From Leucothrix mucor (GTDB lineage Bacteria > Pseudomonadota > Gammaproteobacteria > Thiotrichales > Thiotrichaceae): a DNA stretch of 36,599 nt. The notes beneath the pieces were generated by a model. It saw nothing but the letters and a program-made list of their open reading frames with translations, had not been told where the DNA came from and did not search any database. The stretch is taken from assembly GCA_015663245.1 (NCBI GenBank), contig DQSN01000111.1, positions 1 to 36,599 on the forward strand, in the 5' to 3' direction. Positions 4,467 to 30,459 of this stretch are shown here, piece after piece; position 1 is the stretch's first letter; every line of letters starts with the position of its first letter. The translations under genes were made by a program, and so were the position numbers.

Positions 4467-5750
4467 ATGGCAAAATTAGGCTTTGTTGAAGCCAGACATT
4501 TGGTCTCAAGAACTGGGCTAGGGGCAGAATGGAATGAGATTAATCGCGTTAGTCAACTTTCTATGCATCAGGCTATTGCTCAGTTACTTAAACAGAACAA
4601 CCAGCGTGTACCTGCAATGCCTCGGTTTAGCTCTTGGCGAAAAATGAGTAGCTTATACAATAATCCAGCACGTAGGAATATGGTGCAGCGGATTGCGAAA
4701 GTTGAAGGGAAAGGCTTGCAAACGTGGTGGGTTAAGCATTTGTTGACGACTAAAACGCCTTTTTTAGAACGTATGACCTTGTTCTGGCATAACCATTTTC
4801 CGTCTTCTATCGAAAAAACTAAGCAGGCTAACTTCCTTTATCAGCAAAATATTCTATTTCGTAAACATGCTTTAGGAAATTATGGAACATTATTGCGCGC
4901 CGTCGCAAAAGATCCCGCAATGCTGTTGTATTTAGATGGACACTTGAATACTAAGGAAAACCCAAATGAAAACTTTGCACGTGAAGTGCTAGAGCTATTT
5001 ACGCTAGGTCGAGGGAAATATAAAGAATTTGATATTAAAGAGGCTGCTCGTGCCTTTACTGGTTGGACGGTGAGTGCTCAGGGAAAGTTTGTTAATAATA
5101 GGGCTGATCATGATAATGGTGTAAAAACATTTTTAGGACAACGTGGCAACTTTAATGGTGATCATATTATTAATATTCTTCTAAAGCAGCCACGTACAGC
5201 GGAAGTTGTTGCCGAGAAAATGTGGCATGAGTTTATTAATATCTCTCGTCCCAATCTTCGGATCATAAAGCAGTGGGCGCAGGTTTTTCGTAACTCCAAC
5301 TATAGTACGCGTAAATTGTTACAAACAGTTTTGACCAGTAAAGAGTTCTGGGATAAGCGTAATCGTGGGGCGCTCATTAAGTCGCCGATAGATTTAGCCA
5401 TTGGAACCCTACGCACACTACCTTATAAACTACCTCGGCGTGGTATTGAGCATCGTCTTAATATTTTAGGGCAGGGCGTGTTTAAACACCCAAGCGTCAA
5501 AGGTTGGGTTGGTGGTGCCGATTGGATTAGCACACAGTCTATTTTATTGCGAACCGCTTTGATGAATGATTTGAGCGGTGGGCATTTTCGTGCTAAAGGT
5601 GGTGTTTCGCAAGGCTTGCCTGATACCACTGGAAAACGCATGCAAGAGTGGTTGTTAGCAACAAAACCATTACAACCCATTGATCTGAAATTAGGAAAGC
5701 AACGTCTTGTACGTGCGCTTGTTTTAGATCCTGCTTATCAAGTTAATTAA
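4467..5750 (+). CDS. DUF1800 family protein
   Basis: A 427-residue protein of the DUF1800 family (PF08811), biochemical function unknown. Hallmarks are RMTLFWHNHFPSSIEKTK (residues about 103-120) and YLDGHLNTKENPNENFAREVLELFTLGRGKYKEFDIKEAARAFTGWTV (about 150-200), matching the conserved NPNENxAREVLELFTLG core. No N-terminal signal peptide or membrane segment is visible, although the downstream partner carries a Tat-like signal. It is followed after 11 nt by the DUF1501 gene, the usual pairing of these families. A good ribosome site (TAAGGA) precedes the ATG. It is shorter than many family members, lacking long insertions but with the conserved core intact. Confidence 0.9.
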   Translation: MAKLGFVEARHLVSRTGLGAEWNEINRVSQLSMHQAIAQLLKQNNQRVPAMPRFSSWRKMSSLYNNPARRNMVQRIAKVEGKGLQTWWVKHLLTTKTPFLERMTLFWHNHFPSSIEKTKQANFLYQQNILFRKHALGNYGTLLRAVAKDPAMLLYLDGHLNTKENPNENFAREVLELFTLGRGKYKEFDIKEAARAFTGWTVSAQGKFVNNRADHDNGVKTFLGQRGNFNGDHIINILLKQPRTAEVVAEKMWHEFINISRPNLRIIKQWAQVFRNSNYSTRKLLQTVLTSKEFWDKRNRGALIKSPIDLAIGTLRTLPYKLPRRGIEHRLNILGQGVFKHPSVKGWVGGADWISTQSILLRTALMNDLSGGHFRAKGGVSQGLPDTTGKRMQEWLLATKPLQPIDLKLGKQRLVRALVLDPAYQVN

Positions 5751-5761
5751 GGAATGACACG

Positions 5762-6919
5762 ATGGACCGTCGAGATTTTTTAAAATATAGCAGTTTAGTC
5801 ACGGCTGCAGGGGCACTTCCAGAGTTAGCTTTTGCAAAAGGTAATCCTAAGCGTCAAGATAAAATATTGGTTTTAGTTGAACTAAAAGGAGGTAATGATG
5901 GTTTCAATACATTAGTTCCTTATAGTGATGAGCGTTATGGTAAATATCGTGGAGCACTTGCGTTAAAAGAGCGTAGCCTAATTAAGCTAAAAGACGGAAA
6001 AGGGTTAAACCCTAGTCTAAAAGCAATCGCACCGCTATGGGAAGCAGGGCAAATGGCATGGATAGAAGGTGTTGGTTATCCGCATACTATACTTTCACAT
6101 TTTCGCTCAATAGATGTTTGGGAGACAGCTTCCAGTGCGAATCAAGTATTAGATAATGGTTGGTTGTCCAGAGTATTACCACAATATAAGGAAGGCTTAC
6201 ATGGTATTGCACTTAGTGCAGGACAGGTTAGTCTAGGGCCTCTCGATGGTACAAACCTTAACTGTGTCACGATGCAAAACCCTCAAAGTTTTCTTCGCCA
6301 GTCACGCTATATTAAAGATGTGGCACCTTCACATCAAACGGCTGCCTTAGCGCATATCACCAATAAGCAACATCAACTGCATGATGTGGGAAAGCAAATT
6401 GCTGATCGACTAGGTAAAGGAGGATCTCGTTATAGAGCAAATTTTGCAAAAGGAAAGTTAGGGCATAGCTTACAATCTGTCACTGAAATGATTTTGTGTG
6501 GGGTAGAAGCTCCCGTATATAAAGTTACTCAAGACGGTTTTGATACCCACGCTAATCAACTAGGCGCACAAAACAATGCTCTCTTTCAGTTGTCACATGG
6601 TTTAAAAACCTTTGCAGATGCCATGAAGAAACACAATATGTGGGATAAGGTCTTAGTTGTGACTTATTCTGAGTTTGGACGACGGGTAAAGGTTAATAAA
6701 AGTGGCGGTACAGACCATGGTACAGCATCGGCACATATGGTTTTAGGTGGAAAAGTAAATGGTGGTCTATATGGCAAACATCCAAATTTTGCGCGTTTAG
6801 ATGACAATGGTAATGTCCATCACACCACTGATTTTCGCTCTATTTATGCTACCATCGGAAAAAATTGGTGGGGACAAAAAACACCGTGGCAAGGATATGG
6901 TACGATTCCCTTTGTTTGA
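5762..6919 (+). CDS. DUF1501 family protein with Tat-type signal
   Basis: A 385-residue DUF1501 protein (PF07394), a family related to the alkaline phosphatase/sulfatase superfamily and of unknown substrate. The N-terminus MDRRDFLKYSSLVTAAGALPELAFAKG carries a twin-arginine motif (RRDFLK), a mild hydrophobic stretch and an A-x-A cleavage site, so export in folded form through Tat is likely. The core LVLVELKGGNDGFNTLVPYSD (about 35-55), TQDGFDTHANQ (about 255) and VTYSEFGRRVKVNKSGGTDHGTASAHMVLGG (about 300-330) are the conserved family blocks with candidate metal-binding Asp/His. It is co-transcribed with the DUF1800 gene (11 nt gap) and precedes the ybaK-like gene by 19 nt. Confidence 0.92.
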   Translation: MDRRDFLKYSSLVTAAGALPELAFAKGNPKRQDKILVLVELKGGNDGFNTLVPYSDERYGKYRGALALKERSLIKLKDGKGLNPSLKAIAPLWEAGQMAWIEGVGYPHTILSHFRSIDVWETASSANQVLDNGWLSRVLPQYKEGLHGIALSAGQVSLGPLDGTNLNCVTMQNPQSFLRQSRYIKDVAPSHQTAALAHITNKQHQLHDVGKQIADRLGKGGSRYRANFAKGKLGHSLQSVTEMILCGVEAPVYKVTQDGFDTHANQLGAQNNALFQLSHGLKTFADAMKKHNMWDKVLVVTYSEFGRRVKVNKSGGTDHGTASAHMVLGGKVNGGLYGKHPNFARLDDNGNVHHTTDFRSIYATIGKNWWGQKTPWQGYGTIPFV

Positions 6920-8376: not shown

Positions 8377-9753
8377 TCAATCAACAGATTGAGGGCAGTG
8401 CTTTTGGATGAGAGCTTTGATGCGTTCTATGCGGTTTGTATTTTGAGTCGGTGCGAGTGTGTTCTGGCTTTCCTGCCAGTACTTACAGGCTTTTTCGTTT
8501 TTATCCCATGCTTGATAGAGAAAGCCGAGATTGGTCTGCTGTTGGGAAATAGCTTCTGTATGGGACAGTTCTTGATATATTTTTAAAGACATCAAATGAG
8601 ATGATTCGGACTCTAATAGGTTGTTTTGTGAGCGATGTAATATACCGAGGTTGCCGTATTGATCGGCAATACCTTTTTGTGATTTGATTATTTTATTGAG
8701 CTCAAGTGATTGCTCAAACAATTCCTTTGCTTTGCTTGCTTGCCCCTGCTGCTGGTTGATAATGCCAAGGTTGCTATAGCTACTTGCAGTTTTTGTCTGA
8801 TTGTTACGTTCTAAGTAAATATTTAATGCAATTCGATGGTGTTTTTTAGCTTTTTCAAGTGCTTTGTGTTGATGATAAAGGCTAGCTAGCGATGTTTGCA
8901 GTTTGGCTATTTGCTCACTTTTTTCGAGTGTTTTGTAATGTGAGAGGGCAATTAGATAATATCTCTCAGATGCTTCAAAGTTCTTTTTTTGTTTGTAAAT
9001 TATGGCAAGGTTCTCTGCATTAGAAGCAAGGCTGGGAGTATTTTTTTGTGCATCATTGATTTCTAGTGCTTTTAAATAGGCGGTCTCGGCTTGTTCAAAT
9101 TTAGATTGTGCCTGATATAACAAACCAAAATTAGCATGGGCAACCGCGAGTGTTGTACTTGTATCACCTGATGACTGTAAAACATGATTATAAGCATTTT
9201 CTGCCAAGGCGAATTGTTGTTGTCTGCGGTAATAATGACCAAGTCTATTCCATGCACTAATATTTTTGTTATCAAGTTTGCTGGCTTTTTTATAAGCGTA
9301 TAGAGCAAGTTGTGATGATTGAAGTTGTTGTAGGTTTCCTATATCAACCCATGTTTTAGCCGCTTCTCGTGATTTTTCTTCTAGTTTGACAGATTCGGTC
9401 AGGGTGCTTATTGCGGCATTTAGCTCTAATGCCTGTAAGTTTTGCAAGGCTGGTTGCTTGTTGGTGTCCTGTAAATGTTGAAGTGTATTTTTTACAGCTT
9501 GTAATATATTGCTTCTTTCTTTCTGTGGGATATTGCTAGCAGTGTGTTTGTTCACCAATGTGTTTGCTAAGTCATTGATAGAAAAAATATTTACAATAGA
9601 TTCCGATTCGTTTTTTGTAAGGTCTTTAGAGGAGGGTGGATGTGTTCCTGCTATATCGGAAAGTACCCAGAGAATTGTACCAACAGCCGAAATCAGCAGA
9701 ATGGACAATAAAATACTTGACCAGCTGATATTGGATTTATGTTTTGAAGCCAT
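8377..9753 (-). CDS. Membrane-anchored TPR protein
   Basis: A 458-residue protein with an N-terminal membrane anchor (residues about 10-32, WSSILLSILLISAVGTILWVLSD) and a large, presumably periplasmic, helical domain. From about residue 160 to the end it is built of tetratricopeptide repeats; at least seven can be counted, for example AWNRLGHYYRRQQQFALAENAYN, ANFGLLYQAQSKFEQAETAYLKAL and SNLGIINQQQGQASKAKELFEQSL. The repeats resemble the kinesin-light-chain/NPHP3 class with 40-residue spacing. TPRs are protein-binding scaffolds; the partner is unknown. It lies 34 nt downstream of the degenerate DEAD-box gene on the same strand. The start has no good ribosome site (the upstream sequence is C-rich on this strand). 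Confidence 0.85.
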   Translation of the reverse strand: MASKHKSNISWSSILLSILLISAVGTILWVLSDIAGTHPPSSKDLTKNESESIVNIFSINDLANTLVNKHTASNIPQKERSNILQAVKNTLQHLQDTNKQPALQNLQALELNAAISTLTESVKLEEKSREAAKTWVDIGNLQQLQSSQLALYAYKKASKLDNKNISAWNRLGHYYRRQQQFALAENAYNHVLQSSGDTSTTLAVAHANFGLLYQAQSKFEQAETAYLKALEINDAQKNTPSLASNAENLAIIYKQKKNFEASERYYLIALSHYKTLEKSEQIAKLQTSLASLYHQHKALEKAKKHHRIALNIYLERNNQTKTASSYSNLGIINQQQGQASKAKELFEQSLELNKIIKSQKGIADQYGNLGILHRSQNNLLESESSHLMSLKIYQELSHTEAISQQQTNLGFLYQAWDKNEKACKYWQESQNTLAPTQNTNRIERIKALIQKHCPQSVD

Positions 9754-9787: not shown

Positions 9788-11362
9788 TTATTTTAGTAGG
9801 CTACGCTTACTGTCTTTATAGCGGATTACAACACGCTTTGCAGGAGTCGCAGTACGTTCTTTGGGTTCTGCAAAGTCAGATTGCCAGTTATCACTTTTAG
9901 TCTTATTTGCAGGTCGTACATGTTTTTTACGTTTGCGTTGAGCGCCGCCATCTAGTCTTCCATGTGGGCCTTTGCGAATACGTTTCTTGCTATTATCTTG
10001 AGGCTTATTGCGTGTGCTTTTCCCTTGTTGACTATTTTTATTACTGCTTTTGTGGTTGGTGTTTTTTTGATTAGTTGGGCGTTGAGAAACAAAAGGCTTG
10101 AGCGGTTCTAAACCTGGAACGGTTTGTTGTTCTAGGGGAGTGCCTAAGCTCTTTTCAATTGTTTTTAAAGTATTGTAGTCGCGACCATCGGCAAGAATGA
10201 TCGCAGGATCATCACGTTCACTAGCATGTTTTTGTAGTCGTTGTTGATACTTTTCAATTTTATAGGGCAGTTCAAAATGCAACAAATGCTGTGAGCAACT
10301 CTCGGGAGGGTTTACCGTGCATTGGTCGCTGATGATCAATGTAGCGTTATCTGGAGATGACATTTCATCGTTTGATAAGTTCTTTGCTAATTCTGCATTA
10401 TGTCCATGATTGGCAAGGTTATCTAACAGCTTTTCGGCCGACTTTTGTGTAGAAGTATGGATAATGGTGGGTTCCCCCGCGAACTCATCAAGAAAATGAT
10501 CCATTAGTGCTATTTTATGGGTGTAGTCATCTGCAACGTGGACAATATGTGGTGTATTAGGTAGTTGAATTTTTTGTACTTGCTTTGTAATAGGTTTTTT
10601 ACGAGTATCTTTGTCATTTGTTTTTTGTTCGACTTTTCTGGTGGGTTTCTTGCGCTGTTCTTGTGGCTTCTTTGTTGCTGCTTTTGGTTTGTTTTCCTCT
10701 GCTACTTTTATTTCTTCGGCATTTGGGAATAGCTTACGAACATAAGGTGTGACTTCTTTGTCGTCACGAACAAATGCAATAGTGGGGCAGTTATCACCTG
10801 TTTGGCTAAGAATTTTATCCAGTAAGGTTTGCATGCTTTTGTGATAAATAGTTGTTAAATCATCAACAATGAGCATTTCAAGCTTTGAAAAATCGGCTTT
10901 GTTATTATCAATAAGATCGTTGAGTCGTCCAGGTGTTGCGATCATGAGATCAAGAGGGCGGCGCATCAAACGCATTTGAGGTTGGTACGGGCGACCACTG
11001 ACGACAAAACCAAAACGCATATTGTGATTGAGCGTTAGGCGTTTGAGTGTGTAATTAATTTGGCTTACTCTGTCGCGTCTTGATGTGAGTATTAAAATGC
11101 GCGCTCCACGCTTTTCTTCAACGGGGTTAGCAAGAATATAATTAATTGCAGGTATCAAAAAAGCACCTGTTTTTCCTGCGGCAGTTTGACTCCAAACGAG
11201 TATGTCTTTTCTGTCTGCGACTAGAGGAATAAGCGAGGACTGTAGCTCAGTTGGTGACTGATAACCTGCTTTCTCTATAGAGGCAACAAAGTCTTCTTGT
11301 AGTTTTAATTCTGAAAATGACAAGGGCAGGCTCCCCCAGTCTCGTAATGTATGACGAGGCAT
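9788..11362 (-). CDS. Degenerate DEAD-box helicase-like protein (probable pseudohelicase)
   Basis: A 524-residue protein with a DEAD-box layout: Q motif (LSFSELKLQEDFVASIEKAGYQSPTELQ, residues 14-41), motif I-like SQTAAGKT (58-65), motif Ib ATPGRL (142-147) and two RecA-like regions. Several catalytic motifs have changed: motif Ia PTREL is TSRRDR, motif II DEAD is VDDLT (166-170), no SAT is visible, and the HRxGRxxR of motif VI is missing from the expected place (YQQRLQKHASERDDP). A lysine-rich insert (about 222-265) separates the lobes, and a basic, Asn/Gln/Lys-rich tail of about 120 residues follows, as in RhlB/RhlE-type RNA-binding tails. Probably binds RNA or ribosomes without normal ATPase-driven unwinding (inference). 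Confidence 0.8.
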   Translation of the reverse strand: MPRHTLRDWGSLPLSFSELKLQEDFVASIEKAGYQSPTELQSSLIPLVADRKDILVWSQTAAGKTGAFLIPAINYILANPVEEKRGARILILTSRRDRVSQINYTLKRLTLNHNMRFGFVVSGRPYQPQMRLMRRPLDLMIATPGRLNDLIDNNKADFSKLEMLIVDDLTTIYHKSMQTLLDKILSQTGDNCPTIAFVRDDKEVTPYVRKLFPNAEEIKVAEENKPKAATKKPQEQRKKPTRKVEQKTNDKDTRKKPITKQVQKIQLPNTPHIVHVADDYTHKIALMDHFLDEFAGEPTIIHTSTQKSAEKLLDNLANHGHNAELAKNLSNDEMSSPDNATLIISDQCTVNPPESCSQHLLHFELPYKIEKYQQRLQKHASERDDPAIILADGRDYNTLKTIEKSLGTPLEQQTVPGLEPLKPFVSQRPTNQKNTNHKSSNKNSQQGKSTRNKPQDNSKKRIRKGPHGRLDGGAQRKRKKHVRPANKTKSDNWQSDFAEPKERTATPAKRVVIRYKDSKRSLLK

Positions 11363-12425: not shown

Positions 12426-12644
12426 GAGTTTCCCAGTTTCGTCTGAAAGTTTATTGTGCGGATGATAACAGGAAAGTGGTGTCAATGAATAAATTGTGGT
12501 ATAAAGCGCGCGCAATATTTTTTTGCAAATTTTTGTGAGGTGGTAGTTTATTATCTGCTTCATTTATTTCACACGCGTATCGACACATATAGCAGGGTGC
12601 TGATTATTTTACCTATTAAAGGGTGATGTAACTGGTTGTTAAAT

Positions 12645-12666
12645 GGGGTGCGCGGAGGTCTAACCC
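12645..12666 (+). promoter_or_regulatory. Candidate rpsB leader RNA element
   Basis: GGGGTGCGCGGAGGTCTAACCC forms a small stem (GGGT with ACCC) enclosing a G-rich loop, immediately upstream of the AAAGGAAAG ribosome site and 15 nt before the rpsB ATG. In E. coli, S2 represses its own rpsB-tsf mRNA through a structured leader. The position and G/A-rich conserved look fit such an element; identity as the S2 target is inference. Confidence 0.45.
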
Positions 12667-29262: not shown

Positions 29263-30459
29263 GTGCAGAGTGTCAATCAAGACTTAGCTAAAGAGAATAA
29301 AGTGAAAATATCAAATAAAAAATATACTTTGGGCTCACGTTTGCTTTCGAGTACAACGGGTGATGTATATGCAGCATGGAGTGCAGATAAAGCTGAGCCT
29401 GATGATATGTATCAGCCGCCATTCTTTATTCAGTTTCTACCTGAAAATTACCCGCGTTCAGCAGAGTCAATGCAGGTGTTTAGTCAAGAAGTAGAGAGGG
29501 CAAAGGTGGGTTGTAAAACCTTCAATATTGTTGCTTTTGAACAAACAGGTGATCATGCCTATTTGGTATTTGAGCTTCCTAATGGAGAGTTTCTTAGCAA
29601 TAAAATATTACAAAAAGCGGTGTATGGTGACTTGTCAGATGTTTTATCTTTAGCTGAAAAAATAAAAAAAGCATTTGAGAATGTAAAAAACTGTGGTCTT
29701 GTTCACGGCTGTGTGGGGCTTGATTCAATTTATATCACCAAGAGTGGTGAAGTAATTCTTGTCGATAGTATTTATATTTCAGCAAAACAACACCAATTAG
29801 AAAAGGATATTGAGCATACGACGACAATACCTAATAGAGAGGCTATTTATGCTAGTCCTGATGTGTGTTTTGGTCGAGAGGTATCCGAGCAGGATGATGT
29901 TTTTTCTCTCGCCTGTATTAGTTATCATCTGCTAAGTGGTAGACATCCTTTTGCGGGTGAGAACAGTGTTGCTATCTTGTTAAATAAAACACGACCACAA
30001 CAAATAGATAGTTTAACAGATGCTCAATGGCAACACTTAGAGAATGGTATGTCATTGGTAAAGGAGAGTCGTTTAGAAACTGTTGATGATTTTATTAAAG
30101 GTTTTGATAATGCAGCACTTATAACAGTAAAGAGCTCTATTTCTGAGAGTGTTAATAAAGTGAAAAAAAATGTGCTGGCAAAAAAGCACATAAAGAGCCC
30201 TTTGAATAAGCATGAGCAGCAAAAAAAGCCAGTACGTTCGAGTGGGATAAATAGCTATAAAGAGAAACATAAGGTAGTTATTAATGTTCCACCACAGAAA
30301 AATAAGATGTTTTCTTTTGAAGGTTTACAAGCAAGCTTTCATGAATGGTCGTGGATACCTTTAAGTTTACTTGCTGGTATATTGTCAGGTGCAATTATTG
30401 CGGGGCTAGTGATAGAAATTTTTGGTGTTAATATTTTTTCACTGATGAGTTTTTTCTAG
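29263..30459 (+). CDS. Membrane-anchored protein-kinase-like protein (pseudokinase)
   Basis: A 398-residue Hanks-type kinase fold with a C-terminal membrane helix (WIPLSLLAGILSGAIIAGLVIEIFG, about 368-392). A P-loop-like LGSRLLSSTTGDVYAAW (23-39), the alpha-C Glu in FSQEVERA, and an excellent C-lobe (YASPDVCFGREVSEQDDVFSLACISYHLLSGRHPFAGE, 196-233) show the fold. Catalytic residues are lost: the VAIK Lys is Gln57 (FFIQFL), HRD reads HGC (148-150) with no catalytic Asp, and DFG reads DSI (168-170). A basic linker (KKNVLAKKHIKSPLNKHEQQKKP) joins kinase domain and helix. GTG at 29302 (AAAGAG upstream; MKISNKKYTLGSRLL) is a plausible alternative start. Probably a signalling scaffold. Confidence 0.82.
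   Translation: MQSVNQDLAKENKVKISNKKYTLGSRLLSSTTGDVYAAWSADKAEPDDMYQPPFFIQFLPENYPRSAESMQVFSQEVERAKVGCKTFNIVAFEQTGDHAYLVFELPNGEFLSNKILQKAVYGDLSDVLSLAEKIKKAFENVKNCGLVHGCVGLDSIYITKSGEVILVDSIYISAKQHQLEKDIEHTTTIPNREAIYASPDVCFGREVSEQDDVFSLACISYHLLSGRHPFAGENSVAILLNKTRPQQIDSLTDAQWQHLENGMSLVKESRLETVDDFIKGFDNAALITVKSSISESVNKVKKNVLAKKHIKSPLNKHEQQKKPVRSSGINSYKEKHKVVINVPPQKNKMFSFEGLQASFHEWSWIPLSLLAGILSGAIIAGLVIEIFGVNIFSLMSFF

Follow-up and report, generated by a model that had tools for sequence, protein, structure and literature searches.

The window analysed here is a stretch of 36,599 nucleotides from Leucothrix mucor, and inspection of its sequence confirmed an uninterrupted open frame on the reverse strand (9788-11362) encoding a DEAD-box family protein with altered catalytic motifs, referred to below as the pseudohelicase (Table 1). 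The initial annotation placed its start at the ATG at 11362, giving 524 codons. We replace this start with the TTG at 11323-11321, codon 14 of that frame, and hence describe a protein of 511 aa (9788-11323), because this TTG is invariant in 35 of 35 orthologues, coincides with the start position of intact relatives (read from the residue as TTG, GTG or ATG) and is preceded by GGGGGAG. No conservation is seen 5' of the TTG, where an ATG is lacking in several orthologues. Residue numbers follow the 524-aa numbering (ATG at 11362).

Intact SrmB-side relatives (L079-L105) seemingly also have, for the most part, a TTG or GTG start at this codon, although these starts were read mostly from amino acids and codons were checked for L054 and L057 only; the pattern suggests a long-standing use of weak start codons in the SrmB-side lineage. 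The idea that the 5' leader holds a conserved hairpin with a regulatory role near the Shine-Dalgarno sequence was considered and dropped, as there was no family-wide excess of stability (mean z -0.3; 5/35 below -1). Small hairpins with differing arm sequences lie beside or overlap the Shine-Dalgarno sequence in genera g3 and g5 (L021-L023, L037, L051-L053). A scan with Rfam gave no match in the pseudohelicase leader, the t44 RNA of the rpsB leader being the only match.

Table 1. Features of the pseudohelicase gene and of other loci in the window.
Feature	Position	Strand	Conservation or remarks
Pseudohelicase gene, corrected start TTG	9788..11323	-	511 aa + stop; TTG invariant 35/35 orthologues; order-wide orthologues
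Shine-Dalgarno GGGGGAG	11331..11337	-	from sequence; 7 nt upstream of TTG
Q motif GYQSPTELQ, intact	11240..11266	-	G, Y, P, T, L, Q invariant
Motif I / Walker A SQTAAGKT	11168..11191	-	GKT 35/35; TG(T/S) -> [ST]A[AS]
Motif Ia replaced: TSRRDRVSQ for PTRELAxQ	11060..11086	-	SR, RV, Q invariant
Best conserved stretch RFGF[IV]VSGRPYQPQMRLMRRPLD...ATPGRLNDL (GG doublet + motif Ib region)	10910..11017	-	24/39 residues invariant, residues 113-151
Motif II position, VDDLT for DEAD	10853..10867	-	D 35/35, D 35/35, L/M/F, T/S/A
Variable lysine-rich insert, inter-lobe linker	10553..10687	-	0/45 invariant; absent in several genera
ADDYTHK box, start of lobe 2	10514..10534	-	D, H, K 35/35 in family and 25/25 in intact relatives
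Motif V remnant ISDQ	10322..10333	-	Asp invariant; rest of motif V (ARG[LI]D) lost
Motif VI remnant Y..R	10238..10249	-	first Arg (R375) invariant; both arginine-finger positions lost
PGLEP box	10103..10117	-	common to family and intact relatives
Basic C-terminal tail	9791..10102	-	104 aa, 31 K+R, 7 D+E
Conserved tail box KGPHGRLDGGAQRK	9932..9973	-	family consensus KGPYGRLNGGxQRK
Conserved C-terminal box KRVVIRYKDSKRSLLK	9791..9838	-	family alignment; pattern VVIRYKD.KR
Adjacent TPR protein	8377..9753	-	no obligate part; next to pseudohelicase in genera g1 and g8 only
DUF1800 + DUF1501 gene pair	4467..6919	+	DUF1501 with Tat signal
t44 RNA in rpsB leader	12552..12664	+	Rfam RF00127, 64.7 bits
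Protein-kinase-like protein	29263..30459	+	Pkinase 3.3e-10; HGCVGLDSI for HRDLKPxN, DSI for DFG

Motifs were read from an alignment of 35 orthologues and 25 intact relatives, which bore out the earlier readings of SPTELQ, ATPGRL, SQTAAGKT, VDDLT and TSRRDR. Across the family, Walker A follows the pattern [ST]Q[ST]A[AS]GKT and motif Ia the pattern TSR[RK][DE]RV.Q. At motif II the first Asp is kept and the catalytic Glu is replaced by Asp (D-D-[LMF]-[TSA] in 35/35), and motif III (SAT) is lost throughout. The HRxGRxxR block had been described as missing; both arginine fingers are indeed gone, but the first Arg of the block survives without exception. Relative to an active DEAD-box enzyme, the orthologues depart at motifs II, III, V and VI, retain the Q motif and GKT and have an altered TG(T/S), and these losses are shared by all 35 orthologues read, from all eight genera. 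ATP hydrolysis depends on the motif II Glu and on the arginines of motif VI, and judged by these motifs its loss is very likely; the kept Walker B Asp and the conservative change of Glu to Asp may leave some residual ATPase activity. Motifs Ia, Ib and GG contact RNA in DEAD-box proteins, and the GG doublet with the motif Ib region is RNA-facing. In the pseudohelicases this region (residues 113-151) is the best conserved stretch and includes SGRPYQ.QMRL..RPLD and ATPGRL, the GG motif reading [SG]G and ATPGRL being invariant. As read from the alignment, the motifs for hydrolysis are lost while those predicted to contact RNA are kept in modified form, together with a putative adenine pocket (Q motif, GKT and first Asp).

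The Pfam DEAD model (PF00270) matches lobe 1 only (83 bits), and Helicase_C matches weakly in 14 of 25 family members. The predicted structure has a mean pLDDT of 64, with lobe 1 at about 80, most of lobe 2 at about 60-75, and the insert and tail disordered; this is a model of moderate confidence in which the arrangement of the lobes is not reliable. Foldseek aligned it over about 420 columns (421) to two-lobed DEAD-box structures (E 1e-19). On the predicted model and the sequence, lobe 2 survives as a fold, and the protein belongs to the DEAD-box family by descent and by its two RecA-like lobes. The lysine-rich insert noted earlier between the lobes is present in the window protein but is variable and missing from several genera.

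Orthologues were found in 61 of the 63 genomes of the order, which comprises eight genera of one family, Cocleimonas and Leucothrix among them. Single-contig complete genomes are among the carriers, and a few of the 61 orthologues are split or truncated where a contig ends; both genomes without a match are drafts (89% and 80% complete). No orthologue was detected in 366 genomes of the class outside the order, which yielded intact helicases only: nearly all members of the order scored 1e-190 or lower, against a best of 1e-88 in these 366 genomes, and all fetched class relatives from outside the order carry DEAD and HR[IV]GR. Among 399 genomes of the phylum, a sample that partly overlaps that of the class, only the window itself passed 1e-85 (none of the 398 others). 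Matches to PADLOC models were weak and generic to helicases, and a reading as a defence system was rejected.

In a maximum-likelihood tree the pseudohelicases formed one clade (100/100), placed among intact enzymes of the SrmB side and apart from RhlE, RhlB, DeaD and DbpA; its stem is very long, at 2-3 changes per site. Of the NCBIfam models, the window protein matches SrmB best (NF008394; 145 bits, below the cut-off of 507), and the nearest intact relatives match CsdA (NF053636) best, with SrmB second. In the free tree the clade was not grouped with E. coli SrmB; forced joining was not rejected (p-AU 0.41). The intact SrmB-side helicases of Gammaproteobacteria share with the pseudohelicases the start position, the Q motif, PY..Q....PLD, ATPGRL, ADD..HK, PGLEP and a basic C-terminal tail, and are likely to be the orthologous lineage, the nearest showing about 39% identity in lobe 1. 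They differ in having DEAD, PTREL, SAT, ARG[LI]D and HRIGRTGR (aligned set n=25; the Ser of SAT deviates in two). Trees of the DEAD-box proteins of five genomes added a separate SrmB-like helicase only for genus g2, whose genome G032 carries this intact helicase (L112) beside the pseudohelicase; the window genome is without one. An intact copy of the lineage of the pseudohelicase and its intact relatives was not found in the genomes of the order, where the best matches to the intact relative L054 were at the RhlE level (at most 389 bits, versus at least 429 bits for intact relatives). The parsimonious reading is that catalysis disappeared from the ancestral gene and not from a surplus copy next to a surviving active one. 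The loss is placed before the order diversified.

We consider it fairly probable that this protein is a clade-defining DEAD-box pseudohelicase acting as a non-hydrolysing, possibly ATP-binding scaffold for RNA or pre-ribosomes, and several other explanations must be weighed against this. At 2.7 Mb and 98% completeness, the window genome is a draft fragmented into 252 contigs, which would suit a decaying pseudogene or odd motifs that arose from faulty sequencing or assembly of a single draft. This explanation is refuted by the presence of the gene in 61 of 63 genomes, including complete ones, by 35 full or near-full frames and by pairwise dN/dS values of 0.03-0.15 overall (0.01-0.08 in the lobes), which rule out neutral decay; dS is saturated in several pairs, but those with the least divergence (dS 0.26-1.0) give the same picture. 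The protein combines a helicase fold with catalytic motifs lost clade-wide under purifying selection. The initial annotation had proposed a catalytically dead but retained protein, to be supported by an orthologous clade with the same losses and undermined by intact orthologues or by a decaying single copy without such a clade. The losses shared by 35 of 35 orthologues in eight genera, with dN/dS well below 1, strongly support that proposal and exclude the decaying copy, and the intact orthologues, seen outside the order only, point to the ancestor and leave the proposal standing. Alternatively, the protein could be a divergent but active remodeller whose ATP hydrolysis is weak or altered, with Asp-Asp serving for Asp-Glu and finger residues perhaps supplied by a partner. 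The invariant Q motif, GKT and Walker B Asp would be hard to explain without a bound nucleotide, but none of the orthologues retains motif III, either arginine-finger position or more than a remnant of motif V, and changing DEAD to AAAD in E. coli SrmB leaves about 1% of the ATPase activity (PMC6736130), so that we regard this alternative as unlikely.

Pseudoenzymes often regulate active paralogues, and the window genome retains six intact DEAD-box proteins, grouping with RhlE, RhlE-like helicases (two), RhlB, DeaD and DbpA. The pseudohelicase might therefore tune another DEAD-box protein (RhlE, RhlB or DeaD) or a degradosome component, or compete for their RNA, instead of scaffolding an RNP. 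We hold this to be doubtful, if less so than residual catalysis, given that the RNA-facing part of lobe 1 is the best conserved surface and that the tail is basic. Help from the adjacent TPR protein had also been suggested, and in the window the two genes lie on the same strand, 34 bp apart. They are, however, neighbours in only two of the six genera examined (g1 and g8), being separated in g2, g3, g5 and g6, and the N-terminus of the TPR protein resembles a membrane anchor (MASKHKSNISWSSILLSILLISAVGTILWVLS), in which case its repeats would lie outside the cytoplasm. The TPR protein is therefore no general partner, and a working pair of the two is highly improbable. Gene names read from the sequence define two neighbourhoods of the pseudohelicase, one with map / rpsB-tsf-pyrH-frr (g1, g5 and g8) and one with a radA-like gene (g2, g3 and g6).

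The scaffold role, for RNA or the ribosome, is plausible because the RNA-binding surface of lobe 1 is the best conserved part of the protein and the tail is basic; RNA binding itself is likely, and a ribosomal role is a guess drawn from shared descent with the relatives. Under this proposal, an active SrmB-side helicase would have given up both ATP hydrolysis and the closure that separates strands ahead of the order's radiation, and would then have been retained as a non-catalytic RNA-binding protein. Lobe 1 may grip RNA through the surface of motif Ib and the GG doublet, with Ia in modified form; an adenine nucleotide may still be bound, unhydrolysed, by the Q motif and P-loop, and lobe 2 and the basic tail could supply further contacts with RNA or protein. 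The probable site of action would be large-subunit ribosome assembly or a ribosomal-protein mRNA leader, as for the intact relatives, where the protein would serve as a placeholder or chaperone and no motor. A more specific version, which we put forward tentatively and think more apt to be wrong than right, is that the order swapped its active SrmB-side assembly helicase for its own dead orthologue, which would bind ATP without hydrolysing it and sit on the nascent large subunit as a clamp on RNA or a placeholder.

Comparison with known systems gives some guidance. E. coli SrmB, a large-subunit assembly factor and thus a functional guide, has a basic tail and an ADD.EHK-like box in common with the pseudohelicase, but all of its motifs are intact and its active ATPase is needed in vivo (PMC6736130). 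Its DEAD motif is required for growth in the cold, and the AAAD change gives a deletion-like cold-sensitive phenotype (PMC6736130); the pseudohelicase clade departs from that mechanism. Utp25/Def, a pseudohelicase of the eukaryotic small-subunit processome, likewise has a DEAD-box fold with motifs lost and is kept for ribosome assembly, but it belongs to a separate, eukaryotic lineage, is essential, and has remnants of Ia, a partial Q, IV, V and VI and no DEAD sequence (PMC9539457). PriA of Deinococcus radiodurans is a bacterial helicase family member reported to be a pseudohelicase in one lineage, though a DNA helicase of replication restart and no DEAD-box RNA helicase (PMC4504706). The literature searched, with most subscription journals outside its scope, contained no bacterial DEAD-box pseudohelicase and no paper combining Leucothrix and DEAD-box, and named a pseudohelicase in the title for Utp25 and Deinococcus PriA only. 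Documented pseudohelicases are few, and an order-wide case of single origin that has intact outgroups and hosts that can be cultured (Leucothrix) would allow a direct test of the role of a DEAD-box ribosome-assembly factor without ATP-driven unwinding. If a dead orthologue did replace the active helicase, this would be a natural experiment separating the binding function of such a factor from its motor function.

Elsewhere in the window, the protein-kinase-like protein carries a C-terminal membrane helix and is probably a pseudokinase, and a DUF1800 and DUF1501 gene pair was also observed (Table 1).
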